A stretch of 18,565 nucleotides of DNA. Source: Fidelibacterota bacterium (GTDB lineage: Bacteria; Marinisomatota; Marinisomatia; SCGC-AAA003-L08; GCA-002719095). The stretch covers positions 1 to 18,565 of the forward strand of contig PAHI01000011.1 of assembly GCA_002705575.1 (NCBI GenBank). Direction: 5' to 3'. Position 1 is the first letter of the stretch, and each line of letters opens with the position of its first letter. The position numbers were made by a program, and so were the translations under genes. This document shows positions 1 to 16,316 of the stretch, in pieces. The notes beneath the pieces are model-generated. The model was not told the origin of the DNA. It worked only from the letters and a program-made list of their open reading frames with translations, and ran no database searches.

Positions 1-535
1 ATTATTCTTTAGTTGTGATGAAGATAATCCTGTAACTCAAAATGTATATGGGTGTACAGATAATACTGCCTGCAACTTTAACCCTGATGCAAATATTTAT
101 GTTCCTAATAGCTGTATTTATGGTCAGCCTAATATATGTAATGAATGCGGTGATAATTACAACTGTTTACTTGGCGAATGGAATTATGAAAGTCAGACTG
201 ACGAATATATTAATAATCTTATTGAAGGTGAAGATTGTCTGGTTCAACTCTTAGATTATGTGATTTTTGAAGAAATTAATATTTATTCTAATGGAAAATT
301 AAATTGGTCACTTTATAATTGGTGTGATGAACTATGGGATTGGAACTTTAATAATGAAACAAGTATTTTAGGCATTACCTGTAATACTGAACCAAATTCT
401 ACTTTTGAATTTGAAATTGAATTTAATTATACTAATAATATACTTACTTTGATTAGCTCAATGTCTCAAACAGATGAAGTTGGCAATTCTGTATGTACAG
501 GAATATCAAGAACAAATTATTCAAAAGCCGAATAA
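1..535 (+). CDS. Secreted lipoprotein, 5'-truncated by window edge
   Basis: The reading frame is open from base 2 and begins inside a lipoprotein signal peptide (LFFSC, then DEDNPV). Bases 1-90 match 2543-2632, the start of a complete gene whose leader reads [15 protein letters not shown], with one difference, so only about 10 codons should be missing. After the lipid-anchored Cys comes the motif [18 protein letters not shown], a Cys/Asn-rich element common in FCB secreted proteins, then an acidic, aromatic-rich region with no domain I recognise. The protein ends in KAE, and its TAA (533-535) overlaps the next ATG as TAATG. The first internal Met in frame (base 260) is not the real start. Function is unknown; it is probably anchored in the outer membrane or on the cell surface. 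Confidence 0.8.
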
Positions 536-567
536 TGAATAAACTCTTACCCATCAATATATTCGGC
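527..567 (+). repeat. B-type junction repeat 1 (palindrome-ended)
   Basis: GCCGAATA (527-534) and TATTCGGC (560-567) form a perfect 8-bp inverted repeat around the core ATGAATAAACTCTTACCCAT. The left arm encodes the last two codons and stop of the upstream gene, and the core opens a mini-ORF. Two other 41-nt copies lie at 2058-2098 and 5701-5741. Confidence 0.85.
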
Positions 568-612
568 AGAAAATTTTGTAAATTCCAATGCAAACAAGGG
601 AGAGAGTTATGA
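535..612 (+). CDS. Mini-ORF of junction repeat 1 (25 codons)
   Basis: ATG at 535 overlaps the upstream TAA (TAATG) and opens a 25-codon frame beginning [14 protein letters not shown]. Its TGA (610-612) overlaps the ATG of the next gene at 609. It could act as a coupling leader that hands ribosomes from one gene to the next, or it could be a chance frame inside a recombination site. The shared N-terminus with the mini-ORFs at 2066 and 5709, and the overlap at both ends, are what support it. No protein function is visible. Confidence 0.3.
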   Translation: MNKLLPINIFGRKFCKFQCKQGREL

Positions 613-1193
613 AGAAGATTATTTTAATGTGTTTATTTGGCTTGATGTTCTCAGATACTATTTATTATTTAGTGAATGATGAGATTAAAGAAATAAATAA
701 TGTTATAATATTATATCAAAATGAATCGAGAATATTTTATAAAGATATTAATGGTAAGAGAGATATAAGAACTCAAAATGTTGTTAGTATTTTGGGCAAA
801 AATGATGAAGAAATCTTTGAGTTTAAATCGAATAATAAAAAAAATATTAACACTATCAATAATGATAAAAATCTATCTGCTCACACTAAAAAAGACGATA
901 CGTATTATAATTGCTATGTTTTTGCTCAAAACAACTATGCATCAGATGCTGGCGTCTATGGTTTTGGAACTGGTTTATTTCTTGGTCTGATAGGTACTGG
1001 TTTAGGGTATGCTCTTATTAGTAACTCTTATGTTGAAACACCTTATTATTTAATATCTGAATTATCATTGACAGATGCAGTAATTTGTGAGAAAGGTTAT
1101 AGAAAGTTTGTAGTTGAAGATAAAAGAAATCGTTTTTTATCAGGTGGAATTGTAGGAAGTGTTATTGCAGCACTTATAATAACATCTAATTAA
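609..1193 (+). CDS. Secreted glycine-zipper protein, unknown function
   Basis: A 194-residue product with an N-terminal hydrophobic segment (MKKIILMCLFGLMFS) fitting a signal peptide. The middle is charged and Asn/Lys-rich. It is followed by two Gly-rich hydrophobic stretches, GFGTGLFLGLIGTGLGYAL (about residues 117-135) and GGIVGSVIAALI near the C-terminus, which could be glycine-zipper membrane segments. I chose ATG 609 rather than the upstream in-frame ATG at 588 because AGGGAGAGAG at 597-606 is a good ribosome binding site for it and because the signal peptide then lies at the N-terminus. The gene uses its own start rather than the array's shared leader. I do not recognise the family; a small periplasmic or outer-membrane protein is likely. 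Confidence 0.75.
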   Translation: MKKIILMCLFGLMFSDTIYYLVNDEIKEINNVIILYQNESRIFYKDINGKRDIRTQNVVSILGKNDEEIFEFKSNNKKNINTINNDKNLSAHTKKDDTYYNCYVFAQNNYASDAGVYGFGTGLFLGLIGTGLGYALISNSYVETPYYLISELSLTDAVICEKGYRKFVVEDKRNRFLSGGIVGSVIAALIITSN

Positions 1194-1242
1194 ATAATGA
1201 ATAAACTCTTTCCCATATTGGCTTTATTATTCTTTAGTTGTG
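1194..1242 (+). repeat. A-type junction repeat 1 (start plus signal-peptide leader)
   Basis: AATAATG followed by the shared core ATGAATAAACTCTTTCCCAT, then ATTGGCTTTATTATTC, encoding [15 protein letters not shown]. The GCCG left arm is absent here; the upstream gene's own TAA at 1191-1193 lies three bases before the ATG. Confidence 0.85.
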
Positions 1243-2066
1243 GTGAAAATAGCCCTTTTACATCAGAAAATGTCTATGGTTGTAATGATAGTAGTGCTTG
1301 TAATTATAGCCCTAATGTAACTTTTAATATTCAAAGCAGTTGTTTAGAACTTGATGCATGCGGACATTGTGGTGGAGATAATTCAGCTTGCTTGGATGGA
1401 TGTGGTGTGCCTAATGGAAACAACTCATCATGCACTGATTGTAGTGGTATAATTAATGGCTCTGATTTTGATTGTGGTGGCGCTTGCGATGAAAATGTTG
1501 AATTATGGGGTCAATGTTATAATATTGAGACTACAACAGAATTAAGTTTATTTGATTATCAATACACGGGTGAGATACCTCCTGAAATAGGAAATCTTAC
1601 CAATTTAGAGGAGTTAAATTTAGGTAGAAACTACCTTACAGGAGAGATACCATCAAGCATAGGAAACCTCACGAATTTAGAATCTTTATATTTATATTAT
1701 AATCAACTCACAGGTGAAATACCAGTTGAAATAGGAAATCTTACAAATCTGACTGCATTATATTTAAGTAGCAATCAACTCACAGGACAAATTCCATCAA
1801 GCATAGGAAACTTAACGAATTTAAATGAATTAGGCTTACATGAAAATCAACTCACAGGTGAAATACCAGTTGAAATAGGAAATTTTACAAATTTAGTTCA
1901 TTTAAGTTTAAATAATAATCAACTTACAGGTGAGATTCCTGAAGAAATATGTAATGTTTCAGATGATTATCCAAGTGTAGGGAACAATAAGCTTTGTCCT
2001 CCATACCCAAGCTGTATAACTCAACAAGAAATAGATTCACAAGACACCTCAAATTGCGCCGAATAA
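1197..2066 (+). CDS. Leucine-rich-repeat lipoprotein (6 repeats)
   Basis: A 289-residue lipoprotein. The signal peptide ends in the lipobox LFFSC (Cys15). Next come an ACNYSP-type Cys/Asn motif (about 26-49) and Cys-rich CGHCGGDNSAC, GCGVPNGNNSSC and DCSGIINGSDFDCGGAC segments (54-97). Six LRRs of exactly 24 residues follow from about 120 to 252, with consensus LTGEIPSSIGNLTNLxxLxLxxNQ. A conserved cap, GNNKLCPPYPSCI, and a tail ending NCAE finish the protein. The LRRs are of the plant type (LTGxIP), and such repeats normally bind proteins or glycans. The upstream stop is three bases away and there is no Shine-Dalgarno, so coupled translation is likely. A binding or adhesion role outside the inner membrane is inferred; the ligand is unknown. 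Confidence 0.88.
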   Translation: MNKLFPILALLFFSCGENSPFTSENVYGCNDSSACNYSPNVTFNIQSSCLELDACGHCGGDNSACLDGCGVPNGNNSSCTDCSGIINGSDFDCGGACDENVELWGQCYNIETTTELSLFDYQYTGEIPPEIGNLTNLEELNLGRNYLTGEIPSSIGNLTNLESLYLYYNQLTGEIPVEIGNLTNLTALYLSSNQLTGQIPSSIGNLTNLNELGLHENQLTGEIPVEIGNFTNLVHLSLNNNQLTGEIPEEICNVSDDYPSVGNNKLCPPYPSCITQQEIDSQDTSNCAE

Positions 2067-2098
2067 TGAATAAACTCTTTCGCATTAATATATTCGGC
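2058..2098 (+). repeat. B-type junction repeat 2 (palindrome-ended)
   Basis: GCCGAATA (2058-2065) and TATTCGGC (2091-2098) flank the core (CGC in place of CCC). It has the same 41-nt layout as the copy at 527 and is followed by TGGAGAATTAGTAA, closely matching the sequence after the copy at 5701. Confidence 0.85.
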
Positions 2099-2119
2099 TG
2101 GAGAATTAGTAATATTTAG
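2066..2119 (+). CDS. Mini-ORF of junction repeat 2 (17 codons)
   Basis: ATG at 2066 overlaps the stop of the LRR gene (TAATG). The frame reads MNKLFRINIFGWRISNI and stops with TAG at 2117-2119, two bases before the ATG of the J-domain gene. It resembles the mini-ORF at 5709 (MNKLFPINIFGWKISKF). It is a possible translational-coupling leader; whether a peptide is made is unknown. Confidence 0.3.
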   Translation: MNKLFRINIFGWRISNI

Positions 2120-2121
2120 CT

Positions 2122-2514
2122 ATGAATAATATTACATGTCATAATTGTGGTGAATTAAATTCAGACAAAAGAGTATTATGTTTTTTATGTAATTCTGGAT
2201 TATGGAGTAAAAAGGCAAAAGAAAAAAAACATCAGAAAAGCGGTTATAATAAATACAATAAAAAGGAAAATAATGCTAACAATCAAATGAAAAATAATAT
2301 TTTTGATTCAGATAAACATTATAGAGAAATTTTAGAATTAAAAGGTGAAATAACAAAAATAAAAATCAAAAAACAATACAGGACAATGATGATGAAATAT
2401 CACCCAGATAAAGTAAATAGTATGGGAAGAAAAATAAAAAAAGTTGCCGAAGAAGAGTCAAAAGAAATAATAAAAGCATATAATTATTTTAAAAACAAAT
2501 ATAGCATAAATTAA
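2122..2514 (+). CDS. Zinc-ribbon J-domain (DnaJ-like) protein
   Basis: A 130-residue cytoplasmic-type protein without a signal peptide. Residues 6-23 carry two CxxC pairs (CHNC and CFLC), a zinc ribbon. A Lys/Asn-rich linker follows, and from about residue 64 a J domain with the diagnostic HPD tripeptide (His94-Pro95-Asp96) in MKYHPDKV and a basic C-terminal helix. J domains stimulate the ATPase of DnaK/Hsp70; the ribbon may recruit a client or nucleic acid. It lacks the G/F region and the CxxCxGxG zinc repeats of true DnaJ, so it is a J-domain accessory protein, not the housekeeping chaperone. Its place among lipoprotein genes is odd. Its TAA (2512-2514) overlaps the next gene's ATG (TAATG). 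Confidence 0.85.
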
Positions 2515-2576
2515 TGAATAAACTCTTTCCCATATTGGCTTTATTATTCTTTAGTTGTGATGAAGATAATCCTGTA
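2512..2576 (+). repeat. A-type junction repeat 2 (start plus signal-peptide leader)
   Basis: TAATG plus the shared core, the signal peptide and the CDEDNPV segment. No GCCGAA arm precedes it. From 2543 it continues for 90 bases almost identical to bases 1-90 of the window (one mismatch, C to T). Confidence 0.85.
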
Positions 2577-3158
2577 ACTCAAAATGTATATGGGTGTACA
2601 GATAATACTGCCTGCAACTTTAATCCTGATGCTACAATTTTCGATAATTCTTGCTTCTATGCAGAAGATTGGGAAGATGAATGTGGTGTATGTGATTTAG
2701 ATACTACTAACGACTGTGTCCAAGATGATTGTGGTGTTTGGGGTGGTGATAATTCTGAATGTGAAGCATTCAGCTCAATATTGTTAACTGATGAAGAGGG
2801 GAATGTTTTAGGCTATGAAGGAGATGAAGGATATCATACAAATTGCTTTGAAGACCGTTCACCATTTTGGCTGGATTTTGGTAATAATATAAGTGCTCCT
2901 TTCCCTAATCCATTTAGTTCAGGAATTTCTATAGATATAGCTATTGAAACTGATGCGTTTGTGCATATTAAGATTATAGATGAAGAATACAATGATATCA
3001 AAATTATACATAATAACTATATGACTGCAGGAACACATGCTTTAACATGGGATGGTTTAAATGAATTGGGGAATCAAATTCCAGCTGGATTCTATAGGTT
3101 CATTATTACCTATGAGGATGATGAGTGTTATGTGAACATTAAAAAGCAAGCCGAATAA
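2514..3158 (+). CDS. Lipoprotein with C-terminal FlgD-like Ig domain
   Basis: A 214-residue protein with signal peptide and lipobox LFFSC (Cys15), then an acidic CDEDNP stretch. Residues 25-47 hold the [16 protein letters not shown] motif and residues 57-83 hold Cys-rich ECGVCD and [12 protein letters not shown] segments. From about 128 to 205 lies a FlgD-type Ig-like fold: FPNPF, then alternating strands, [24 protein letters not shown]. In FCB bacteria this fold commonly forms the C-terminal module of exported proteins, where it may act in sorting or attachment. Having both a lipid anchor and this tail is somewhat redundant. It ends in QAE with TAATG overlap to the next gene. The exact role is unknown. 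Confidence 0.82.
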
Positions 3159-3196
3159 TGAATAAACTCTTTCCCATAGTATTGGCTTTATTATTA
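3150..3196 (+). repeat. A-type junction repeat 3 (AGTATTGGC variant)
   Basis: GCCGAATA, the shared core, then AGTATTGGCTTTATTATTA. It encodes [13 protein letters not shown] but diverges before the lipobox, so the next protein gets the leader without a lipid-anchor Cys. GCCGAATA can pair with TATTGGC if one G is bulged. Confidence 0.8.
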
Positions 3197-3718
3197 AATA
3201 ATTTATATTCCAATAAAACAACCTTTAATGATTTGATTGGAATATCATATGCAAAAATATCTGATTCAGAAATTTTTTCATTAGGATTCCAAAACAGACT
3301 TCAAAATGAAAATATATTTGGACTTGGGTTTATCCATTACACTACATATGGTCGCATATACGACAATGAAACAAAAATATGGCTTCCTCATTTTGGATAC
3401 GATATTAATCTTCTTAAATCAAAAACCATAACATCATCTATTTCAATAGGTGCTTCTATTTTAAATAAAGACTTTATTTTTATAAATGGAAGAAAAACAT
3501 CAATTATTCACAATAGTTTATTCTCAAGTATTAATTTTAATTTTAAGTTTAAGAACGATTTTGGATTTGGAATACAATTAGGGCTATATGAAGGCTGTAA
3601 ATACACAACATGCCTAAGTTGTTTAGAAATAGAAAAATCAAACTGCAAATACATATTAATGCCAGGATTTTCTATTAACCTTTACGATTTTATCACTAAA
3701 ATCTATAAGGAAAATTAA
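3158..3718 (+). CDS. Putative small outer-membrane beta-barrel protein
   Basis: A 186-residue protein using the array leader ([18 protein letters not shown]), which here lacks a lipobox Cys and should be an ordinary signal peptide. The rest has many alternating hydrophobic, Gly and aromatic strands (FGLGFIHYTTYGRIY, SSISIGASILNKDF, NFKFKNDFGFGIQLGLY, PGFSINLYDF), suggesting an 8-strand-type barrel. Four Cys cluster near residues 147-163. No homologous family is recognised. ATG 3158 overlaps the preceding stop (TAATG), giving the choice of start. Shared leader but unrelated body: a clear case of one leader joined to different coding sequence. Confidence 0.72.
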   Translation: MNKLFPIVLALLLNNLYSNKTTFNDLIGISYAKISDSEIFSLGFQNRLQNENIFGLGFIHYTTYGRIYDNETKIWLPHFGYDINLLKSKTITSSISIGASILNKDFIFINGRKTSIIHNSLFSSINFNFKFKNDFGFGIQLGLYEGCKYTTCLSCLEIEKSNCKYILMPGFSINLYDFITKIYKEN

Positions 3719-3719
3719 A

Positions 3720-3800
3720 TTGACAAAGTATAAAGTAATTACAGTCAGTCAAACAAATAGATTAAAAGGATTAGAAGGCACCTTAAATTGCGCCGAATAA
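3720..3800 (+). pseudogene. Chimeric remnant: unknown start fused to LRR-gene tail
   Basis: Between two array genes lies a 26-codon open frame from TTG at 3720, reading TKYKVITVSQTNRLKGLEG and then TLNCAE-stop. Its last 25-30 bases (CACCTTAAATTGCGCCGAA) match the 3' ends of the LRR genes at 2045-2063 and 4435-4453, in the same frame. The front half does not match anything in the window. It looks like the scar of a deletion or recombination that joined a foreign 5' fragment to the tail of a lost LRR gene. It may be untranslated. Confidence 0.5.
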
Positions 3801-3846
3801 TGAATAAACTCTTTCCCATATTGGCTTTATTATTCTTTAGTTGTGA
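3792..3846 (+). repeat. A-type junction repeat 4
   Basis: GCCGAATA, the shared core, ATTGGCTTTATTATTC and TTTAGTTGTGA: a full leader encoding [16 protein letters not shown]. It is preceded by the LRR-gene tail sequence even though the upstream gene is not an LRR gene. Confidence 0.85.
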
Positions 3847-4456
3847 TTCAAATCCTGTTACTACATTATGTGATGAAAGTAATGAGGTTGAGTTATGGGG
3901 GCAATGTTATAATATTGAGACTACTACAGAAATAAATTTAGATAGCAATCAACTTTCAGGACAGATACCTTATGAAATAGGAAATCTTACAAATTTAATT
4001 AGGATATATTTATATGATAATCAGCTTACAGGTGAGATACCATCAAGCATAGGAAGCTTAACGAATTTAACTCTTTTAGAATTAGGAGAAAATCAACTTA
4101 CAGGCGAGATACCATCAAGCATAGGAAACTTAATAAATTTAACTGGATTAGGCTTATTTAATAATCAGCTCACAGGTGAGATTCCTGAAGAAATTGGGAA
4201 TTTGACAAATTTAATTAAGATATATTTAAATGCCAATCAACTCACAGGTGAGATACCTTCAAGTATAGGAAGCCTCACGAATTTAGAATCTTTATATTTT
4301 TCAAGTAATCAACTTACAGGTGAGATTCCTGCAGAAATATGTAATCAAGGTGATAGTACTCCAAGCTTAGGTAACAACAAACTCTGTCCACCTTATCCAT
4401 CTTGTATATCTCAAGATGATATAGATTCTCAAGAGACTTCAAATTGCGCCGAATAA
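3800..4456 (+). CDS. Leucine-rich-repeat lipoprotein (6 repeats, short)
   Basis: A 218-residue lipoprotein: signal peptide with lipobox LFFSC (Cys15), a short linker with VELWGQCYNIETTTE, then six 24-residue plant-type LRRs from about 44 to 187, the cap GNNKLCPPYPSCI and the tail ETSNCAE. It lacks the Cys/Asn-rich N-terminal modules of the other two LRR proteins, so it is the minimal member. I start at ATG 3800, where the shared leader begins; an in-frame TTG at 3788 would add four residues and is not credible. The stop TAA (4454-4456) overlaps the next ATG. It is probably a surface-binding protein. Confidence 0.87.
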   Translation: MNKLFPILALLFFSCDSNPVTTLCDESNEVELWGQCYNIETTTEINLDSNQLSGQIPYEIGNLTNLIRIYLYDNQLTGEIPSSIGSLTNLTLLELGENQLTGEIPSSIGNLINLTGLGLFNNQLTGEIPEEIGNLTNLIKIYLNANQLTGEIPSSIGSLTNLESLYFSSNQLTGEIPAEICNQGDSTPSLGNNKLCPPYPSCISQDDIDSQETSNCAE

Positions 4457-4521
4457 TGAATAAACTCTTTCCCATAGTATTGGCTTTATTATTCTTTAGT
4501 TGTGATGAAGATAATCCTGTA
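4448..4521 (+). repeat. A-type junction repeat 5
   Basis: GCCGAATA, the shared core, AGTATTGGCTTTATTATTC, then TTTAGTTGTGATGAAGA and TAATCCTGTA. It encodes [22 protein letters not shown], combining the AGTATTGGC form of the 3150 copy with the CDEDNPV end of the 2512 copy. Confidence 0.85.
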
Positions 4522-5706
4522 GCATCTGACACCACTGCGCCAATTGTAACAATAACATACCCAGTCAATAACGCAACTTTATCTGCTCAAACCACTGTTT
4601 TAGTGAATGTCGTTGATGACAGCGATATTACTTCTGTTGTTTTCTTGGTTAATGGCACTGAAACCTTTACAGATACTGAAGCACCTTTTGAATATAGTTG
4701 GGATGTATGCGCAATAAGCAGTGAAACTCCCATTATGGATTCTTTTGGAGATATGCTCACTGGGTCAGCAGCAACTATTCTTGTCAACGCTATAGATTCA
4801 AATAATAATATAGGTGTATCTCAATTAATTACATATAATGTTGGAGGAGAATATGATGAGTGTAGTGTTTGTGGAGGGGATAATTCAACTTGCACAGATG
4901 AGTGTGGTGTAGTCAATGGAGACAACTCTACTTGTACTGATTGCAGTGGCGTGGTTAATGGCTCTGATATTGATTGTGGTGGTGCTTGTGATGAAAATGT
5001 TGAATTATGGGGTCAATGTTATAATATTGAGACTACAACAGAATTAAGTTTATTTAATTATCAATACACGGGTGAGATACCTTCAAGCATAGGAAACCTT
5101 ACCAATTTAACTTATTTAAATTTAGGTTTAAATGAACTTACGGGAGAGATACCTTCAAGCATAGGAAACCTCACGAATTTAACTTATTTGAGATTATCTT
5201 CTAATGAACTCACAGGAGAGATTCCACCTGAGATAGGAAACCTAACGAATTTACATGAATTAAGCTTAACAGAAAATCAACTCACAGGAGAGATTCCACT
5301 TGAGATAGGAAACCTCACGAATTTACATGAATTACATTTACACAATAATCAACTTTCAGGTGAGATACCTGCTGAAATTGGAAATCTTACAAATTTAACT
5401 TATTTAATTTTATATTCTAATGAACTCACAGGACAGATTCCACCTGAGATAGGAAACCTCACGAATTTAGTAGATTTAAATTTGTATAATAATGAATTCT
5501 CAGGTGAAATTCCTTCAAGCATAGTAAACTTAACAAACTTGACTCATTTGTATTTATCTAACAATCAACTAATAGGTGAGATACCGTCTGAAATATGTCA
5601 AGTTGATAGTACTCCAAGTGTAGGTAACAACAACTTCTGTCCTCCATACCCAAGTTGTATATCTCAATATAATATAGATACACAAGACACTTCAAATTGC
5701 CCTTAA
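4456..5706 (+). CDS. Ig-like plus leucine-rich-repeat lipoprotein (8 repeats)
   Basis: A 416-residue lipoprotein, the largest of the array. Lipobox LFFSC (Cys16) is followed by DEDNPV. Then comes a bacterial Ig-like domain (about 22-135) opening TTAPIVTITYPVNNATL and containing SVVFLVNGTETF and ILVNAIDSNNNIG. Cys-rich ECSVCGGDNSTC, ECGVVNGDNSTC and GSDIDCGGAC segments follow (about 138-180). Eight 24-residue plant-type LRRs run from about 200 to 390, then the cap GNNNFCPPYPSC and a tail ending SNCP instead of NCAE. The start is ATG 4456, overlapping the previous stop. Bases 4957-5082 match 1455-1580 of another LRR gene with 4 differences in 126, indicating recent duplication or conversion. 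It is the last full gene of the array. Confidence 0.88.
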   Translation: MNKLFPIVLALLFFSCDEDNPVASDTTAPIVTITYPVNNATLSAQTTVLVNVVDDSDITSVVFLVNGTETFTDTEAPFEYSWDVCAISSETPIMDSFGDMLTGSAATILVNAIDSNNNIGVSQLITYNVGGEYDECSVCGGDNSTCTDECGVVNGDNSTCTDCSGVVNGSDIDCGGACDENVELWGQCYNIETTTELSLFNYQYTGEIPSSIGNLTNLTYLNLGLNELTGEIPSSIGNLTNLTYLRLSSNELTGEIPPEIGNLTNLHELSLTENQLTGEIPLEIGNLTNLHELHLHNNQLSGEIPAEIGNLTNLTYLILYSNELTGQIPPEIGNLTNLVDLNLYNNEFSGEIPSSIVNLTNLTHLYLSNNQLIGEIPSEICQVDSTPSVGNNNFCPPYPSCISQYNIDTQDTSNCP

Positions 5707-5741
5707 TAATGAATAAACTCTTTCCCATTAATATATTCGGC
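5701..5741 (+). repeat. B-type junction repeat 3 (array end)
   Basis: The core ATGAATAAACTCTTTCCCAT is followed by TAATA and the right arm TATTCGGC (5734-5741). The left arm has decayed to CCTTAATA, so the inverted repeat is lost. It is the last copy and marks the downstream end of the array. Confidence 0.8.
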
Positions 5742-5762
5742 TGGAAAATTAGTAAGTTTTAA
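5709..5762 (+). CDS. Mini-ORF of junction repeat 3 (17 codons)
   Basis: Reads MNKLFPINIFGWKISKF then TAA, near-identical to the mini-ORF at 2066. It starts three bases after the stop of the last LRR gene. No gene follows on this strand, so it cannot couple to anything here; it may simply be the unoccupied form of the junction element. Confidence 0.25.
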   Translation: MNKLFPINIFGWKISKF

Positions 5763-5929: not shown

Positions 5930-6778
5930 TTAAGTAACGTTTTTTTTAAGATTTGTTGATACAACTAAAAAAGATTTTAAAAGTAAATATAGTTTTTTAA
6001 TCCTTAGTACGCTCGTTCTTTTGGTGAGTAATTGTACAGAATTTGCTTTTTCTATCTTTTTTAATAGTTCAAGATAAATAAGATAAGAAGTATAAACACC
6101 AATTTGAGCTCCTTTATTAAGTTTTTTAATTCCTGGCAGAGCATTTTTAAAATCTTTTTTAATATCGAGTATTATTTCTTCTTTTTTTGAATTTATCGAT
6201 TTTTTGTTGGCCTCCATATTAAAATATCTTCTATTTAAAATTTCAGTGTCATAATGGAGGTCTCTTAAGAAGTTAACTTTTTGAAAGGCAGCTCCTAAGC
6301 TAATTGAGCTATGTTTAAGCTTTTCGTATTCTTTATTATTTCCATTAACGAATATTTTTAAACACATGAGACCAACAACTTCTGCAGATCCATAAATGTA
6401 TTTATTAAATAATTTTTTGTTGTAGGTTTTATTATTGAGATCAAGTCGCATGCTATCAATAAAAGATTTAACTAAATCATAATCAATTTTATATTTATGA
6501 TATACTTTTTGAAAGGAATTTATTATTGGGTTGAGACTTATTCTAGTTTTTATCGATTTATTAAATTCATTTTCAAATTCATCTAGAAGTTCACTTTTAT
6601 TATATTTGTGAAAAGAATCTACAATCTCATCAGCTAATCTTACAAACCCGTACACTGAATAAATCGCTCTTCTATTTTTTTTAGACAATAAGAAAGTGCT
6701 TAAATAAAATGAGGTACTATATTCATACATAACATGAGTAGAAACTTTTTCAGATAGTCTGTCATAGATTTTTTTCAT
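5930..6778 (-). CDS. crtB: Phytoene synthase
   Basis: A 282-residue squalene/phytoene synthase that condenses two geranylgeranyl diphosphates to 15-cis-phytoene, the first committed carotenoid step. Both Mg2+-diphosphate-binding aspartate motifs are present: Asp50-x3-Asp54 in FVRLADEIVD and Asp173-x3-Asp177 in NFLRDLHYD. YIYGSAEVVGLM (about 127-138) and LGAAFQ (161-166) also fit the family. The length is close to the usual 280-310. It is the last gene of a four-gene operon and its start overlaps the end of crtI by 17 bases, so translation is probably coupled. The substrate-making GGPP synthase is not in this window. Confidence 0.95.
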   Translation of the reverse strand: MKKIYDRLSEKVSTHVMYEYSTSFYLSTFLLSKKNRRAIYSVYGFVRLADEIVDSFHKYNKSELLDEFENEFNKSIKTRISLNPIINSFQKVYHKYKIDYDLVKSFIDSMRLDLNNKTYNKKLFNKYIYGSAEVVGLMCLKIFVNGNNKEYEKLKHSSISLGAAFQKVNFLRDLHYDTEILNRRYFNMEANKKSINSKKEEIILDIKKDFKNALPGIKKLNKGAQIGVYTSYLIYLELLKKIEKANSVQLLTKRTSVLRIKKLYLLLKSFLVVSTNLKKNVT

Positions 6779-8243
6779 ATTTTTTCTCTAAGATTTTTGA
6801 AATTATTTTACCAGATATAATTGAAGGTGGTACTCCAGGGCCTGGTACAGTAAAATGTCCGCAATATGATAAGTTCTTTATCTTCTTGTCTTCAATTTTA
6901 GGTTTGAATGTAGCAGTCTGGAGTAATGTATTTGCTAAACCGTATGCGTTTCCTTTATATGCATTGTAGTCTGTAATGAAGTCTTTTCTTGTATAGTTGA
7001 TTTTTTCAATAATGTTTGATTTTATGTTTTTTTGTTCATGTTTTTCTAATTTTTTAATTACATAATCAAAATAATATTTTATTATTTCATTTGTTGGTTC
7101 AGTTATTGTTGAGATAGGTAAAAGAATAAATAAATTTTCAGAATTCTTGTTTGGCACAACACTTTTATCAGTTTTACTTGGACAGCATACATAGAAAAGA
7201 GGTTTTTTTGGAAATTTCTTTTTTTTGTAGATATCATTTAGATGATTGTCAAAATCTTCATCAAAAAATAAATTATGGTGCTTTAAAAAATCTATTTTTT
7301 TTGATAATCCAACGTAAAATATAATTGCTGAGGGTGCTAATTTTCTAGATGACCAATATTTTTTTGAATAAGACTGGTGTTTTTTAGAAAGAATATTTAG
7401 CTGTGTGAATGGATATTCGCAGTTTGATATAACATGATCTAAATCATAAAACTCTTTATTATCATACAAAACTTTTTTAATACTATTGTTCTGAATATCA
7501 AATCCTGTAACATTTTTATTAAACTCGAAATTTACTCCTAATTTTGTAGCTATTTTCATCATTCCGTTTACGATTTCATACATGCCACCCATGGGGTACC
7601 ATGTACCACCTTTGATGTCCGCAAAATTCATCATACTATAAATTCCTGGAGTATTATTTGGAGTACCTCCAAGAAAAATGGATGGAAATTCTAATATTTT
7701 AATCAAATCTTCATTATTAAAGTATTTTCTGATATGCTTTCTAAGAGATATGAAAATATTAAGTTTGTGTATATTTTTAATAATAGTAGGACTCAAGAGT
7801 TCTGTAAAGGATTGTCCGTTTAAATTTAGAAAATTATCAATCGAGAGCGTATATTTCTTTTCTGCTAGATTTATGTATTTAATTAGAGCTTTAGATGAAT
7901 TAGGTTCTATTTTATCAAAAAGTAAACATAGATCATCAAAGTTTGCAGGAATATTGTAGGTATTGTTTTTTGTTATAAATTGATATGATGGGTCTATTCT
8001 TACAAGATTGTAGAAATCACAAGTGTTTTTGTTGAAATCTTTAAAAAATGCGTCAAATATATCAGGCATCCAATACCAAGAAGGTCCTTTATCAAAAGTA
8101 AATCCTCCAGATCTAAATTGAGATAATCGACCTCCAGGAGTAATATTCTTATCAATCACTGTGACTTTAAAACCAGCTTTTGATAAATAGCATGCTGCAG
8201 ATATTCCTGAAACACCCGCTCCTATTATAGTTATTTTTTTCAT
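6762..8243 (-). CDS. crtI: Phytoene desaturase (CrtI type)
   Basis: A 493-residue FAD-dependent desaturase that turns phytoene into lycopene through successive desaturations. The N-terminal Rossmann motif GAGVSG (residues 8-13) with VIDKNITPGGRLSQF and GFTFDKGPSWYWMP is typical of bacterial CrtI, as is the C-terminal YCGHFTVPGPGVPPSI segment that completes FAD binding and membrane association. Length is usual for the family. Its ATG overlaps the stop of blh by four bases (8240-8243). Neighbouring crtB supplies its substrate and crtY uses its product. A ketolase-like CrtO or saturase reading is less likely given the lycopene-cyclase/Blh context. Confidence 0.95.
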   Translation of the reverse strand: MKKITIIGAGVSGISAACYLSKAGFKVTVIDKNITPGGRLSQFRSGGFTFDKGPSWYWMPDIFDAFFKDFNKNTCDFYNLVRIDPSYQFITKNNTYNIPANFDDLCLLFDKIEPNSSKALIKYINLAEKKYTLSIDNFLNLNGQSFTELLSPTIIKNIHKLNIFISLRKHIRKYFNNEDLIKILEFPSIFLGGTPNNTPGIYSMMNFADIKGGTWYPMGGMYEIVNGMMKIATKLGVNFEFNKNVTGFDIQNNSIKKVLYDNKEFYDLDHVISNCEYPFTQLNILSKKHQSYSKKYWSSRKLAPSAIIFYVGLSKKIDFLKHHNLFFDEDFDNHLNDIYKKKKFPKKPLFYVCCPSKTDKSVVPNKNSENLFILLPISTITEPTNEIIKYYFDYVIKKLEKHEQKNIKSNIIEKINYTRKDFITDYNAYKGNAYGLANTLLQTATFKPKIEDKKIKNLSYCGHFTVPGPGVPPSIISGKIISKILEKKYEKNL

Positions 8244-9160
8244 ATTATTCTCTGCTTTTGCGATACTTTATTAAACACGATTTCAGTTACTATATGAGGA
8301 AATGTTAGGGATGCTAGTCCAATAAAAATTGAGGTGCTTAGAGCAGAAAAAGTATTTAAAAAGTTAGTTGAAAAAATAAAAGAAAATAAAAAAAGCATAA
8401 AAGTTATTATTGAAATAAAAATCACTTTTTTACGTTGCATAAAAACAAGTTTGCTGCGATTAAATATAGGTTTTGAAATGTTTCTTAGAGAGTGAAGAAA
8501 ACAAAAGTATAAAGTAAAAGCTAGAATAGGTTCAAGTGTGTAATTTATTATTACAAGTAAAATCATATCAGTATTGAAAATTATTCTATTTAAGTAGTTA
8601 CGGATGTATATAAATGATAAAGTAATATTAGCAGTTAATAAAATAGCAAAAATGATATAATTTGAATTAAGAAACGTTAAATATTCAGTGTTATTCATGA
8701 AATTTAATATTTTTAAAATAGAAACAGTTTCATAAAAGTTCAGGATAAGTGGAAGGGTAATAATAAGTGCCCCTCTAGTTATAGATATCAATAAATTAGG
8801 GTACACGTTGAAATATGAATAATCATCAGCGCCAAAGTGGTGTATGGAAATAAATAAAAATAATGATAATGTAAAAACTGGCATTAAAAGCCAAAAAGTA
8901 ACAACAGAAACTAAAATCAAAATGTAGATACTAATAAAATTGAAGAATTTTAGATTAAAATAATTAGATATTTTATCAACTTTATTAATATCGAAAGCAC
9001 CATGGTAAATGCCAATTGTAGATACTAAAAAAAATGAAAGATAGGTTGCTAAATTTTGATTATTTGATAGAGGAAGTATTTGGTCAAGCATTATAAAAGT
9101 TATGCAGGCAAATCCAAATACGTAGGAAATCTTTTTATTAAATAATTTATAGTTATTCAT
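8240..9160 (-). CDS. blh: Beta-carotene 15,15'-dioxygenase (Brp/Blh family)
   Basis: A 306-residue multi-span membrane protein of the Brp/Blh family, which cleaves beta-carotene symmetrically into two retinals, the chromophore of the neighbouring rhodopsin. Conserved His-bearing motifs are visible: IYHGAFDI (His53), SIHHFGADDY (His107/108), FLHSL (His223) and TFPHIVTE (His289); in this family histidines bind the catalytic iron. About eight or nine hydrophobic segments are seen. It overlaps crtY upstream (9157-9160) and crtI downstream by four bases each, so all four genes should be one transcript. Its presence indicates that carotenoid made here is used for retinal. Confidence 0.93.
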   Translation of the reverse strand: MNNYKLFNKKISYVFGFACITFIMLDQILPLSNNQNLATYLSFFLVSTIGIYHGAFDINKVDKISNYFNLKFFNFISIYILILVSVVTFWLLMPVFTLSLFLFISIHHFGADDYSYFNVYPNLLISITRGALIITLPLILNFYETVSILKILNFMNNTEYLTFLNSNYIIFAILLTANITLSFIYIRNYLNRIIFNTDMILLVIINYTLEPILAFTLYFCFLHSLRNISKPIFNRSKLVFMQRKKVIFISIITFMLFLFSFIFSTNFLNTFSALSTSIFIGLASLTFPHIVTEIVFNKVSQKQRII

Positions 9161-10227
9161 ATTAATAGAGCTTTTAAAAAATATCTTTTAGGTAAGTTTT
9201 TAATTACTTTGAAATCATTTACTAGATTGCTTTTGTTTGATAAGAATTTTAAAGCAGAAGAAGTGTTTTTTGAAAAAAGTGAAGTGAAAATTTCAGGCAT
9301 TTTACTTGGGTAATTTTCTATAACTTTAAATAAAATATCGTCGTAAAAAGAATATTTTTTATGTAGCTTAAATTCAGGGAAAGATAAAATATCAGCAATA
9401 TTTTTTGTAATAAATTTAGAGTGACTCTGTATATTAGAAAAAGTGTACCCCGTGCTTTTTCGAGTTAGATTGGCGGCAGACCCTATTAGTATTTCATTGG
9501 AATTCTTTTTATGGTTAAAATGACTTAGCGGTAAGGAACCTATCTCTTCATAGCAAACATTATATTTGTAAATATTTAGTTTATTGTTTAGGTATGTTTC
9601 TATTTCATTTAAATACTCATTTTTTTTATGCGATTTATTTTTGGATATCCATGTTGTTTCAATTAAAGCTTTTTTTGAACTATATGGCAATATGTAGAAA
9701 AAATGAACACCATGTTTTGGATGGCTGAAATCCATTAGACAGAACTGTTTTGGTTCAAAGTAGTCATTTTCAATTTCAATTTCAACGCCATAGAAATGCT
9801 GATAAAAAATACTTTTTTTATTTTTTTTAGGTATGCTATTAAAAACAATTCCAGATTTAAGATCAATTTTATCTGAATATTCAGTAAAAAATATATTTGG
9901 ATTGATTTTTAAGCTTGATAAGATTTTTTCATAAAATAAATTGCTGTTAATAGATTGATATGGATACTTTGAGCAATTTACTCTAACCTTTTTATTATCG
10001 CATTTTAAGTAAAAATCATTCCATGATTTGACAACACAATCATTAAAAAGGTGATTTTCAAAATTCCAAAAGGACCATGTTTTATCTCTAGAGTAGGATT
10101 TTCTCTTTTCTACAATACATAAAGTTTTGTTAGATAATTTTTTTGATAAATTAAGATGATAAGCTAGAGAGAGTCCAGCGCAACCACCACCTAATATCAC
10201 ATAGTCGTATTTTTTATTTTTTAACAT
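9157..10227 (-). CDS. crtY: Lycopene beta-cyclase (CrtY type)
   Basis: A 356-residue flavoprotein cyclase converting lycopene to beta-carotene. It has the dinucleotide-binding GGGCAG (residues 13-18), the family motif RDKTWSFW (47-54), LMDFSHP and the C-terminal GSAANLTRKSTGYTF. It is slightly shorter than the usual 380-390 residues, mostly at the C-terminus. First gene of the operon; its ATG (10225-10227) lies about 30 bases downstream of the direct-repeat operator at 10257-10271. It diverges from the proteorhodopsin gene. Confidence 0.93.
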   Translation of the reverse strand: MLKNKKYDYVILGGGCAGLSLAYHLNLSKKLSNKTLCIVEKRKSYSRDKTWSFWNFENHLFNDCVVKSWNDFYLKCDNKKVRVNCSKYPYQSINSNLFYEKILSSLKINPNIFFTEYSDKIDLKSGIVFNSIPKKNKKSIFYQHFYGVEIEIENDYFEPKQFCLMDFSHPKHGVHFFYILPYSSKKALIETTWISKNKSHKKNEYLNEIETYLNNKLNIYKYNVCYEEIGSLPLSHFNHKKNSNEILIGSAANLTRKSTGYTFSNIQSHSKFITKNIADILSFPEFKLHKKYSFYDDILFKVIENYPSKMPEIFTSLFSKNTSSALKFLSNKSNLVNDFKVIKNLPKRYFLKALLI

Positions 10228-10242
10228 TTTATCATATTATTA

Positions 10243-10271
10243 ACAATAAAAGATAATGCACGGTTTGCACG
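10243..10271 (-). promoter_or_regulatory. crtY-operon promoter with CGTGCA direct repeat
   Basis: On the minus strand CGTGCA (10271-10266), AAC, CGTGCA (10262-10257): two half-sites with 9-bp period. Seventeen bases after the first half-site is TATTGT (10248-10243), a plausible -10 box, putting the first half-site in the -35 position. The layout is the same as at the rhodopsin promoter, which supports it as a shared operator. Confidence 0.6.
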
Positions 10272-10375
10272 TATTAAATTATAATAAGCTATCTAATTAT
10301 CCAATAATTAAAAATTTTCTTAATAATTTAATTTTTTATTTGGTTTATAATTTTTTTGTATATAATATAACTTAC
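10272..10375. other. Divergent intergenic core, AT-rich
   Basis: About 100 bases between the two operator copies. It is almost pure A/T with short self-complementary runs (AATAATTAAAAATTTTCTTAATAATT). An open frame from 10256 runs through it into the rhodopsin gene but lacks coding character. It probably serves as promoter spacer only. Confidence 0.5.
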
Positions 10376-10404
10376 CGTGCAAAACGTGCAAATTGTATTA
10401 TAAT
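10376..10404 (+). promoter_or_regulatory. Proteorhodopsin promoter with CGTGCA direct repeat
   Basis: CGTGCA (10376-10381), AAA, CGTGCA (10385-10390), then TATAAT at 10399-10404, exactly 17 bases after the first half-site. The first half-site replaces a canonical -35, as expected for a site where a regulator controls RNA polymerase access. Seven bases after the -10 comes AGGAG (10411-10415), the ribosome binding site. Confidence 0.65.
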
Positions 10405-10423
10405 TAAATTAGGAGATATAACA

Positions 10424-11083
10424 ATGGTAGATTTAGGTAATTTCACAGTTTTCTCTTTTTGGCTTGCTACAGCTATGATGCTTGCTTCCACTGTGTTCTT
10501 TTTTGTTGAAAGGGGAGATGTTAGTATAAAATGGAAAACTTCATTAACAGTTGCTGGTTTAGTTACTGGTGTAGCTTTCTGGCACTATCTTACTATGAGT
10601 AAATTAGCGGCGGATGGTGTATCGCCAGTTGCGTACAGATATGTAGATTGGTTTATAACAGTCCCGTTGCAAATAGTTGAATTTTATCTAATATTAGCAG
10701 CAGTTACTTTAGTTAGCTCTAAAGTATTTTGGAAACTTTTAATAGCCAGTTTAGTTATGTTAATTGGCGGGTATGTAGGCGAAACATGTGGGGCCGATTA
10801 TCAGTTGAGCGGATTTATTGTAGGAATGTTTGGTTGGATTGGTGTTTTATATTTGATTTTTATCGGAGACGCAGCAAAAGCTAATGCAGGCAGTAAGAAT
10901 GAAGCTTCGCAGTTCGCCTTCAAAGTGATGCGTTTGATAGTATTGTTCGGTTGGGCAATATATCCAATTGGATATTGGTTGCCGGATGCTACACTGAATG
11001 TGGTTTACAACCTAGCAGATCTAGTTAATAAAACTGCTTTTGGCCTGATGATCTGGGTAGCTGCAAAAATGGACACTAAATAG
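10424..11083 (+). CDS. Proteorhodopsin, blue-tuned light-driven proton pump
   Basis: A 219-residue seven-helix microbial rhodopsin. Helix C carries RYVDWFITVPLQIVEFYL with Asp75 (proton acceptor), Thr79 and Glu86 (proton donor): the DTE set of outward H+ pumps. Gln83 occupies the spectral-tuning site (105 in the SAR86 protein), where Gln gives blue and Leu green absorption. His54 (AFWHY) matches the conserved His75 partner of the acceptor. Lys203 in LADLVNKTAFGL binds retinal. I start at ATG 10424 because AGGAG lies nine bases upstream and the frame before it is non-coding. There is no cleavable signal peptide. Retinal comes from the divergent crt/blh operon, which has the same operator. It pumps protons across the inner membrane in light. 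Confidence 0.96.
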   Translation: MVDLGNFTVFSFWLATAMMLASTVFFFVERGDVSIKWKTSLTVAGLVTGVAFWHYLTMSKLAADGVSPVAYRYVDWFITVPLQIVEFYLILAAVTLVSSKVFWKLLIASLVMLIGGYVGETCGADYQLSGFIVGMFGWIGVLYLIFIGDAAKANAGSKNEASQFAFKVMRLIVLFGWAIYPIGYWLPDATLNVVYNLADLVNKTAFGLMIWVAAKMDTK

Positions 11084-11305: not shown

Positions 11306-11704
11306 GTGAAAAATGTACTCTTAATCAGTTTATTGATATTCTTCCCTTTTGGTAATCAAGTATTTGGACAAAATATTGAGTGTGTTAAAATAGGACAATC
11401 TATTTTTTCTGTTTGGAATCATTCTGAAAATATAAACTATAATCAAAAAATCAAAGTAGGTCAGATTATTTTAGATAAACCTACTAATTCAAATTATGAT
11501 TCAGGATGTATAGGTCGATGCGGAGAAGGATGTGGAAAAGATGGGTCAGGATATTATACATTAGATTGTTTAAATCATGACATGTGTACATTTTATGACT
11601 CTAAATTTGGATGGATCTTTGATCGTGATTGTGGAGATGAATTAGTGAATGCAATTGATGATTTTTTGTTTGGTAAAGAATGTTATATAAAGTCTCAAGA
11701 TTAG
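11306..11704 (+). CDS. Secreted phospholipase-A2-like protein
   Basis: A 132-residue protein from a GTG start, with signal peptide MKNVLLISLLIFFPFGNQVFG. Cys-rich GCIGRCGEGCG (67-77) resembles the Gly/Cys calcium loop of secreted phospholipase A2, and LDCLNHDMCTFY (87-97) contains the CxxHDxC active-site helix with the His91-Asp92 pair; a further CGDEL lies at 109-113. sPLA2 enzymes hydrolyse the sn-2 acyl ester of phospholipids. The domain is short, so activity is not assured. Nearby ATG codons are out of frame or stop at once, so GTG is chosen. The next gene follows after 17 bases, making co-transcription likely. Confidence 0.65.
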   Translation: MKNVLLISLLIFFPFGNQVFGQNIECVKIGQSIFSVWNHSENINYNQKIKVGQIILDKPTNSNYDSGCIGRCGEGCGKDGSGYYTLDCLNHDMCTFYDSKFGWIFDRDCGDELVNAIDDFLFGKECYIKSQD

Positions 11705-13646: not shown

Positions 13647-13689
13647 TATTTTATTTATTGTAAATTTCAATGCAAAAAAGGATATAATT

Positions 13690-14112
13690 GTGAAAAATAT
13701 TATCTTAATAAGTCTAGTGACCTTGTTTATTAATTCAAGTTTGGTTGCATCTAATAATGATTTATGGCCTATGTTAAAAATTTCTTATGATATGAACTTG
13801 GGATTAACATTTAGCGTTGGTCTTTCAATACTAAACTATGAACGTAGTACAGGTAAAGGGATATATGTTTTAGCATCAAAAGGTAGAAAAGGTAGTAATA
13901 TTTCTTTTGGAGCCTTAGGTGCTGCAGGTGGATTTTATGGCACTTATGGATTAAATCGTATGAAAGTTAATAAGGATAATAATATAAGTTTTTGGGGTTT
14001 AGAAATGTCTACAAATTTTTTGCTTCATTATAAAATAGGTTTAATGAATAAAAATAAACTACTTAAAATATCTGATTATAAGTTTAATTTAGCAGCAGGT
14101 CTTGGCATATGA
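13690..14112 (+). CDS. Small exported protein, possible outer-membrane barrel
   Basis: A 140-residue protein with GTG start and a good AAGGA site at 13678-13682. The N-terminus MKNIILISLVTLFINSSLVAS is a signal peptide. The mature part shows alternating Gly and hydrophobic strands (LGLTFSVGLSILNYE, ISFGALGAAGGFYGTYG, ISFWGLEMSTNFLLHYKIG), typical of outer-membrane strands. It ends abruptly in NLAAGLGI in what looks like mid-strand, so it may be a truncated barrel. Its stop overlaps the next ATG as ATGA, which suggests an operon. Family not recognised. Confidence 0.65.
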   Translation: MKNIILISLVTLFINSSLVASNNDLWPMLKISYDMNLGLTFSVGLSILNYERSTGKGIYVLASKGRKGSNISFGALGAAGGFYGTYGLNRMKVNKDNNISFWGLEMSTNFLLHYKIGLMNKNKLLKISDYKFNLAAGLGI

Positions 14113-14621
14113 TAACAAATAAGCTCTTTGCTATAGTATTTATATGTTGTTTTGGTTCATTTATTTTAGCTGCAGCAGATTGGAAGGATAATCTTTTTAC
14201 TGAAAGGAGTGTTTCTTTTGGACTTATGAGTGAAAGGCTGGGAACTGATTTTTGGAATTTTTCATGGACTGCTTATAAAAAAAACAATAATGATGTTTTT
14301 ATTAGTATTGGTCCATCGATTTTTATTCCAACAAATGTAGGAATGGGATGGAAGCATTATTTTAAAGCGCGTGGTAAAAAAAATAAAGTTGTACTATTTT
14401 CATGCTTATCTATGTTTGAGAGGTCTGCAAATAAAATGAGTAATTCTACTGGTGATGCGATTAGAGAAGATAGTTGTGTCGGATTATCTGGAGGAATATC
14501 TTACTTTTTATCTAAGTGTAAAAAAAGAAATGTGTACTTAAATGTAGGAGTATTTGCTAGTTATGACTTCAGAAATGATTATTTTGTCCTACCTGTTGTT
14601 AATATAGAGTTTAAAAGATGA
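14109..14621 (+). CDS. Exported protein of unknown function, possible barrel
   Basis: A 170-residue protein whose N-terminus MITNKLFAIVFICCFGSFILAAA is a signal peptide. Strand-like segments follow (VSFGLMSERLG, VFISIGPSIFIPTNVGMGW, VGLSGGISYFL, VYLNVGVFASYDF, VLPVVNIEF), and the C-terminal residues FKR are preceded by an aromatic/hydrophobic strand. It may complement the short upstream barrel-like protein: the two genes overlap by ATGA. The NKLF start faintly resembles the array leader at 1-5762, but the DNA match is weak. Its stop again overlaps the next gene by four bases. Confidence 0.65.
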   Translation: MITNKLFAIVFICCFGSFILAAADWKDNLFTERSVSFGLMSERLGTDFWNFSWTAYKKNNNDVFISIGPSIFIPTNVGMGWKHYFKARGKKNKVVLFSCLSMFERSANKMSNSTGDAIREDSCVGLSGGISYFLSKCKKRNVYLNVGVFASYDFRNDYFVLPVVNIEFKR

Positions 14622-15649
14622 AAAAACTGTTTGTCATTGTGTTTGTTCTATTAATGGGAGACGTTTCTTATTCTCAATGTCAAGGTGATGTTAATCAAGA
14701 TAATGATCTTAATGTGTCTGATATCATTATTGTAGTAAATCACATATTGGGTTTTGATACACTCGCTGAAGATTTGCAATTAGTTGCAGATTATAACTCT
14801 AATTTAAGTATTGATGTATCTGATGTGATTTTGATTGTTAATGATATTTTAAATGAGAATTTATGTAGTTCTGAACTATTAGATATTATTACATGGAATA
14901 TAGAGAATTTCCCTAAATCAGAATTAACAATTGATTATGTAAGCTCTATAATTAATAGTTTTAATGATATTGATATTATAGCATTACAAGAGATTCAGAG
15001 TACGATAGCTTTCAATCAATTAATTAGTTCTCTTGAAGATGGTTGGGTTGGTTATAGGCATGAAGACAGTAATTATGGAGAACTTTCATATCTTATTAAT
15101 ACAGAAAAAATCACATTTAATGCTCCATATTCGATACTTAATCAAGAGGAGTATTATTTTGCATATAGACCACCTTATGTGTTAGAATTTACCTATAAAA
15201 ATAAACAGTTTGTGTTAATTAATATCCACTATAAATGTTGTGATAACACCAGTCAAGATTCGTATAGAAGAGAGCAAGCATCAATTTTACTTGATGAGTA
15301 CATTGTTGATAACTTTAATACTAAAAATGTTATAGTTGCAGGTGATTTTAATGATGAATTGATTGATGATGACAATGTTTTTGATATATTTTTAAATGAT
15401 TCACAAAATTATTTATTTGCTGATCTTGAAGTAGCCCTTCAATCTGATTGGTGGCAATATTGGTCTTATCCAACATGGCCTAGTCATATAGATCATATTT
15501 TGATTACTAATGAACTTTTTGATGAATATCAAAAACCAGCCTCATATTGTAGTACATTTTTAATAGATTCTAATTTTTCAAATTGGTGGGAATATGATCA
15601 GTATATTTCAGATCATAGACCTGTAAGAATTTCACTATTTATTGATTAA
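14618..15649 (+). CDS. Secreted EEP-fold nuclease/phosphatase with N-terminal dockerin-like domain
   Basis: A 343-residue secreted protein. A signal peptide (MKKLFVIVFVLLMGDVSYS) is followed by a dockerin-like pair of Ca2+ loops at 23-45 (GDVNQDNDLNVSDIIIVVNH) and 57-79 (ADYNSNLSIDVSDVILIVND). From about 88 to the end is an endonuclease/exonuclease/phosphatase domain: TWNIENF (Asn94), LQEIQ (Glu125), INIHY (His204), AGDFND (Asp243, Asn245), SHIDHI (Asp292, His293) and SDHRPV (Asp332, His333), all the catalytic and metal positions. Such enzymes cut phosphodiesters in DNA, RNA or lipids. The dockerin lies N-terminal rather than C-terminal. A role in extracellular DNA or phosphorus scavenging is inferred; the substrate is not shown. 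Confidence 0.88.
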   Translation: MKKLFVIVFVLLMGDVSYSQCQGDVNQDNDLNVSDIIIVVNHILGFDTLAEDLQLVADYNSNLSIDVSDVILIVNDILNENLCSSELLDIITWNIENFPKSELTIDYVSSIINSFNDIDIIALQEIQSTIAFNQLISSLEDGWVGYRHEDSNYGELSYLINTEKITFNAPYSILNQEEYYFAYRPPYVLEFTYKNKQFVLINIHYKCCDNTSQDSYRREQASILLDEYIVDNFNTKNVIVAGDFNDELIDDDNVFDIFLNDSQNYLFADLEVALQSDWWQYWSYPTWPSHIDHILITNELFDEYQKPASYCSTFLIDSNFSNWWEYDQYISDHRPVRISLFID

Positions 15650-16281: not shown

Positions 16282-16316
16282 TAATGATTAATACTTTAAA
16301 AAAAGAGAGTTTTTTT

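Follow-up and report, generated by a model that had tools for sequence, protein, structure and literature searches.

In the first 5.8 kb of an 18,565-nucleotide (nt) stretch of DNA from a Fidelibacterota bacterium (contig PAHI01000011.1; the whole stretch is hereafter called the window), we find an array of eight genes that all run in one direction and meet at junctions carrying one short repeated core. Front ends of several of these genes are identical in DNA, a copied front stands on an unrelated body, the sequences to the left and right of the core are associated independently of each other, and neighboring genes mostly overlap. We consider it fairly probable that the array grew as neighbors underwent ectopic homologous recombination, gene conversion, and duplication.

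One core at eight gene junctions

A search of the window for the core, ATGAATAAACTCTTTCCCAT, with a tolerance of 3 mismatches returned eight copies, each with at most one mismatch and all on the + strand (positions 535, 1197, 2066, 2514, 3158, 3800, 4456, and 5709). Shuffled sequence gave 0.01 matches. This confirms an initial annotation of the same DNA, which had described eight junctions in the same orientation at coordinates that prove to be 2 to 8 nt too far left. The core is spelled with two rare codons, CTC (3.8% of Leu codons) and CCC (5.2% of Pro codons), as judged from 12 other genes of the window. The probability that an independent MNKLFPI would have this exact spelling is about 4 × 10−4 per copy. 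Because the rare-codon spelling is kept in the copies, we conclude that they are related by descent.

Every core copy (8/8) contains TAATGAATAA, which holds a stop codon in two frames and a start codon in the third; its second-frame reading gives a protein that ends in NE. At five of the eight junctions (535, 2066, 2514, 3158, and 4456), the upstream gene's stop and the core ATG share 1 nt; the stop lies 3 nt before the ATG at 1197 and 2 nt before it at 5709. At 3800, only a stub frame ends at the core, with gene 6 ending 81 nt earlier. The overlaps suggest that translation may be coupled through termination and reinitiation. Two papers report that 4-nt and 1-nt gene overlaps couple translation (PMC10666635, PMC6728339).

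Two forms of the junction can be distinguished. In the A form (1197, 2514, 3800, and 4456), the core runs on as a complete signal peptide, MNKLFPI(V)LALLFFSC, with a lipobox that we recognized by eye. The four complete leaders are identical at 45/45 nt if the 3-nt insert of gene 8 is disregarded. The A-type leader at 3158 breaks off after 13 codons. The initial annotation had five genes receiving their signal peptide from the junction; five starts are indeed in frame, four of them opening a complete signal peptide, but 3158 supplies 13 codons only, and the cut-off gene 1 makes a sixth leader-bearing gene, since its 177 amino acids (aa) in the window equal part of the leader-bearing protein P0006. 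Judging from their signal peptides, the products are probably surface lipoproteins.

In the B form (535, 2066, and 5709), the core opens mini open reading frames (mini-ORFs) of 25, 17, and 17 codons, respectively, which are not signal peptides. The mini-ORF at 535 has a stop that overlaps the next ATG, and the one at 2066 stops 2 nt before the next ATG; no close + strand gene follows the one at 5709. In two of the three B forms, an inverted repeat, GCCGAATA...TATTCGGC, encloses the start of the mini-ORF, while the left arm of the third is unrelated. The left arm of the repeat could be a product of quasi-palindrome correction. A folded single-strand site is not found at every junction: as DNA, the third B form and the five A-type junctions (6/8) fold no better than shuffles on the + strand, and folding of the − strand, which covered 4/8 junctions, gave similar results. 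Among three A forms folded as RNA, z was −2.25 at 3792 and −1.1 and −0.7 at the other two. An Rfam search returned no match at gathering scores. A role of the B hairpin as a terminator was rejected; the sole terminator-like site that we found is not at a junction.

The flanks of the core vary independently. Across the + strand of the 18.5-kb window, GCCGAATA is found only before five of the eight cores (535, 2066, 3158, 3800, and 4456), and its complement, TATTCGGC, is confined to the three B forms. Left flanks with or without GCCGAATA are joined to A or B right flanks in all four possible combinations (4/4). This shows that sequences have been reshuffled around the core; the combinations do not reveal the agent of the reshuffling.

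Shared front ends and back ends

The strongest evidence for front-end copying comes from genes 1 and 5. From the window edge, which corresponds to a point 29 nt inside gene 5, all 81 visible nt are identical (81/81), and the bodies that follow are unrelated. Beyond this stretch, 14, 8, and 3 of 20 nt agree in successive blocks (8/20 being nt 101 to 120). The identity reaches about 110 nt past the start codon. For comparison, P0009, a protein from another contig that is presumably the gene 1 orthologue, aligns along the whole of gene 1/P0006 at 59% protein identity. With 81/81 nt between the paralogous fronts against 59% aa identity to P0009, we conclude that the front ends were copied recently. 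This is one case, with the orthology of P0009 presumed, in which paralogue segments are more alike than orthologue segments.

Copying extends beyond the junction into the first protein module. Its right edge is not limited to one site: in ungapped comparison, similarity ends 14 to 58 nt past the ATG depending on the gene pair, and values of 17 nt arise from the 3-nt insert of genes 8 and 6. On the left, similarity between the unrelated genes 1 and 5 ends sharply at GCCGAATA. The bodies had been called unrelated in the initial annotation. Several kinds are present [leucine-rich repeat (LRR), FlgD Ig-like, J domain, and bodies with no match], in keeping with that claim, but three of them (genes 3, 7, and 8, at 1197, 3800, and 4456) are LRR paralogues, with a DNA identity of 74 to 81% between their bodies.

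A second shared front end lies outside the core family. The 5′ region of gene 2 (576 to 628) matches that of the gene at 13690 (13658 to 13709) over 53 nt at 81% identity (E = 2 × 10−7). The matched stretch takes in the ribosome-binding region and the first codons, and the two encoded proteins have no similarity. The alignment score was 54; seven other gene starts reached no more than 28, and just under 2000 random stretches no more than 29. Separately, the gene at 14109 (MITNKLFAIVF...) has 29 nt (14112 to 14140) that are 83% identical to the A leader (E = 0.06); its start is possibly an older leader copy.

Back ends are also shared. Three of the four LRR-type tails of the array (gene 3, gene 7, and the stub frame) end in NCAE, and gene 8 ends in NCP, as do P0003, P0022, and P0023 from other contigs, of which P0022 and P0023 are closely alike. 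A fourth outside LRR protein, P0019, ends in NTCD. The initial annotation had pointed to a recurrent GCCGAA before the stop; judging from this distribution, it seems to belong to the junction rather than to the gene. The stub at 3720 to 3800 matches the tail of gene 3 at 21 of its last 22 nt, 9 of which are the junction itself. Gene 6 thus has a leader stub on one side and the tail stub of an LRR gene on the other.

Proteins from other contigs extend these observations. The leader occurs, as protein, in eight of them, with more sequence variation. Tails ending in AE, NE, or IN are found in 7/8 of these leader-bearing proteins and in 1/13 leaderless proteins from other contigs (Fisher P = 5 × 10−4; the tail classes were picked after the list had been viewed, and the counts become 9/12 versus 1/13 once proteins of the window are added). 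The C-terminal bodies of P0004 and P0016 are related; one protein carries this leader and ends in NE, the other carries a different leader and ends in ND. We predict that an NE end is the sign of a following junction. P0002, also from another contig, joins a gene 8–like front and Big_7 domain to a gene 5–like module and a FlgD-type end.

Gene content of the window and searches for relatives

The genes and junctions of the array are listed below. No significant Pfam match was found for genes 1, 2, and 6.

Table 1. Genes and B-form junctions of the array, with window coordinates.
Feature	Position	Strand	Basis or remark
Gene 1 (5′ end lost at window edge): predicted lipoprotein, YGCTD module and unknown body, ends KAE-stop	2..535	+	Identical to P0006 residues 11-187
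B-form junction: GCCGAATA, core (1 mismatch), TATTCGGC; perfect 8-bp inverted repeat	527..567	+	DNA fold −6.1 kcal/mol, z −4.7
Predicted mini-ORF of 25 aa from core, stop overlapping next start (ATGA)	535..612	+	Reading frame
Gene 2, own start	609..1193	+	No Pfam match; 5′ region matches that of gene at 13690
Gene 3: shared signal peptide, spacer module, LRR body, tail NCAE-stop	1197..2066	+	Reading frame, Pfam
B-form junction with inverted repeat (core 1 mismatch); mini-ORF 2066-2119 (17 aa)	2058..2098	+	DNA fold z −2.3
Gene 4: J-domain protein, own start	2122..2514	+	Pfam DnaJ, E 9 × 10−10
Gene 5: shared signal peptide, YGCTD module near-identical to that of gene 1, FlgD Ig-like body, tail KQAE-stop	2514..3158	+	Pfam
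Gene 6: first 13 leader codons, then body without relatives	3158..3718	+	Protein search
Short TTG-start frame ending TLNCAE-stop; LRR-gene tail stub between gene 6 and next junction	3720..3800	+	No Pfam match
Gene 7: shared signal peptide, LRR body, tail NCAE-stop	3800..4456	+	Pfam; longer frame with upstream TTG also listed
Gene 8: shared signal peptide with one extra Val codon, Big_7 domain, spacer, LRR body, tail NCP-stop	4456..5706	+	Pfam; longer frame with upstream TTG also listed
Last B-form junction, left arm CCTTAATA, without inverted repeat; mini-ORF 5709-5762 (17 aa); array end	5701..5762	+	Sequence, folding

A protein search for relatives of gene 6 under another leader matched only gene 6 itself (1/131 candidates). 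Its single-sequence structure model is strand-rich and not interpretable, with a predicted local distance difference test (pLDDT) score of 37.6. The models of genes 6 and 1 were not used for fold searches because their mean pLDDT was below 38. A DUF4177-like protein beginning with the 26-aa frame at 3720 was considered and dropped; it had no Pfam support.

A genome scan with a degenerate form of the 20-mer returned eight loci in varied bacteria, with one match each, which we take as chance because none of the eight frames continues as a lipoprotein leader. Viral contigs gave 0 matches to the 20-mer. A degenerate leader search matched three near-identical stretches of viral contigs, in which the frame closes within about 14 codons; these, too, were set aside as chance. 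There was no match among phage records to window positions 500 to 1300, the only stretch searched there, and none among plasmid records to positions 2000 to 3300, likewise the only stretch searched. The window's phytoene desaturase had matches in 190/196 genomes searched, with a best identity of 45%; there is therefore no near relative among these 196 genomes. A search of the open-access literature with narrow terms did not find such an array described, which is weak evidence.

The rest of the window holds other genes. Protein motifs point to a host that is probably a marine bacterium of the Fidelibacterota (Marinimicrobia) type. At 5930 to 11083, phytoene synthase–like, phytoene desaturase, Brp/Blh-type carotene dioxygenase, and lycopene cyclase–like genes on the − strand lie beside a rhodopsin gene on the + strand, a predicted retinal and rhodopsin gene set. 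The 132-aa protein at 11306 to 11704 seems to begin with a signal peptide and contains the motif DCLNHDMC, which is reminiscent of phospholipase A2; it has no Pfam or NCBIfam match at E = 0.01. The product of 14618 to 15649 belongs to the endonuclease/exonuclease/phosphatase family and has a sub-threshold dockerin match, and that of 16278 to 17915 has a dockerin match.

How the array may have grown

We propose that a run of small, mostly overlapping, co-directional genes for lipoproteins and other proteins expands and diversifies by recombination between neighbors. The copied unit would chiefly be the front end (the start codon, the signal peptide, and often the first extracellular module), together with a matching short back end, and the bodies between the copied ends would be LRR copies or unrelated sequences. 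TAATGAATAA would act as a stop-start adaptor that closes the preceding gene in two frames and opens the next. Each joined gene would therefore retain its start, its export signal, and its place in the operon. The recombination would be of the RecA type, and the array would be read as a single transcript with coupled translation. At any given gene, we infer rather than observe whether the body or the front end was the part replaced. Copying that exceeds the junction in length and stops at a variable right edge is more in line with homologous recombination or gene conversion than with site-specific cassette exchange. The initial annotation had viewed the junction as a recombination or homology site through which bodies are exchanged. 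Identical, recent fronts on unrelated bodies and the four flank combinations support this much of it. An integron-like or site-specific mechanism is not supported: no attC boxes at the junctions and no recombinase were seen, the right edges vary, copying runs past the junction into the first protein module, and modules farther in are near-identical too (45/45 nt between genes 3 and 8).

Integron cassette arrays have attC sites that are recombined by the IntI integrase. Like them, this array has about one gene per unit, a single direction, and a repeated junction, and two of its junctions are able to form a hairpin. Unlike them, it has no attC boxes above chance and no integrase in the window, and its junction is conserved by sequence rather than structure and contains a start codon and signal peptide. 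Pairs of attC boxes (RYYYAAC/GTTRRRY) gave 2 matches, compared with a mean of 1.39 in 100 shuffles; both are one place (4883) counted on both strands and away from the junctions. An attC/integron array was accordingly rejected as a candidate. A scan of 21 distinct window genes (against NCBIfam only for the four carotenoid genes and the gene at 15712) gave no integrase or recombinase family; the upstream end of the array lies outside the window. Both results agree with the initial annotation, which had seen neither an attC core nor an integrase.

Tandem paralogue arrays homogenized by gene conversion have homogenized segments, variable breakpoints, and direct repeats. All three features recur here. 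The present array differs in that its homogenized front also stands on unrelated bodies, with inner modules homogenized only among paralogues.

Among described systems, the mycoplasma vpma/vsp loci come closest: their coding sequences differ, but their 5′ untranslated and signal peptide regions are conserved, and a recombinase is linked to them (PMC2268961). These loci and our array have in common that lipoprotein genes are clustered and keep their front ends and signal peptides, with coding sequences that differ. In vpma, the linked enzyme is the tyrosine recombinase Xer1; a 72-nt site has been proposed before each start codon, inversions occur, and the promoter is unique (PMC2268961). By contrast, our array has one orientation, its core begins at the start codon, its genes mostly overlap, and no recombinase is seen among the genes scanned, the locus being incomplete in the window. 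Inversion would require genes in both orientations; 8/8 core copies are on the + strand within the window's part of the locus.

Plain vertical paralogy would make the array an old tandem family in which the signal peptide is kept by selection, bodies have diverged beyond recognition or were rarely lost and replaced, and no exchange continues. The leader's more varied presence in eight proteins from other contigs is consistent with this, as is P0009, which keeps leader, body, and tail together. We nevertheless regard it as unlikely: nucleotide identity covers third codon positions and rare codons, the fronts of genes 1 and 5 resemble each other far more than gene 1 resembles its homologue P0009, and the bodies come from different Pfam families. 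A site-specific cassette system appears quite unlikely; its recombinase would be encoded beyond the window and would use the core or the GCCGAATA/TATTCGGC hairpin as its site, in the way that Xer1 works on vpma arrays and IntI on attC. Such a system would account for the sharp left edge at GCCGAATA between unrelated genes 1 and 5, for a perfect inverted repeat at two sites (DNA fold z of −4.7 and −2.3) whose arms occur only at junctions, and for the occurrence of all four flank combinations; the upstream array end, where an integrase would be expected, is outside the window. However, the repeat is present in only 2/8 junctions, and the other six fold like shuffles as DNA (with an RNA z of −2.25 at 3792). 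The lack of attC boxes above chance, the variable right edges, the lack of a recombinase family in the 21 genes scanned, and the single direction of all core copies also argue against it.

An assembly artefact, in which repeats of at least 45 nt misled a metagenome assembler into joining unrelated genes at their leaders, is very improbable. The window may be a metagenome contig, and the joins are located in exact repeats, but gene 6 with its leader stub is found on three contigs and genes 5 and 8 on two each (the independence of the contigs being presumed only). Furthermore, gene 1 with its leader lies on an 8387-nt contig, and the leader-bearing relative P0004 on a 1.67-Mb contig.

Several points weigh against growth by recombination between neighbors. 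The basis is a single genome, so that no gene gain or loss is seen, and leaders conserved by selection could partly look alike. The left edge is sharp at GCCGAATA, and the inverted repeat of two B forms has no explanation in a recombination model. P0009 has its leader, body, and AE tail inherited together, suggesting that exchange there is not frequent. The inner spacer modules of the LRR paralogues are also near-identical (42 to 45 of 45 nt; genes 3 and 8 agree at 45/45, and gene 7 differs at 3 nt). Leader identity alone is therefore no proof of front-end copying among the LRR paralogues, and genes 1 and 5 are the strong case.

A broader role for the junction is a tentative idea, and a rather unlikely one: it might be a general capture adaptor, a stop-start element with either an export leader (A) or a reinitiating mini-ORF (B). 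With it, a bacterial lineage would build arbitrary bodies into an operon for surface display, needing no attC sites and perhaps no dedicated recombinase. This idea draws support from the tails, because 7/8 leader-bearing proteins, versus 1/13 others, have tails that this junction gives or could give.

Growth by recombination between neighbors, which we favor, makes the array a clear case of front-end copying at the DNA level, with the same start and export signal on unrelated bodies. Through such copying, a protein can acquire its export signal and its position in an operon in a single step. Should strains show gain and loss of genes bounded by the junctions, the array would be a cassette platform that is independent of the integron machinery.

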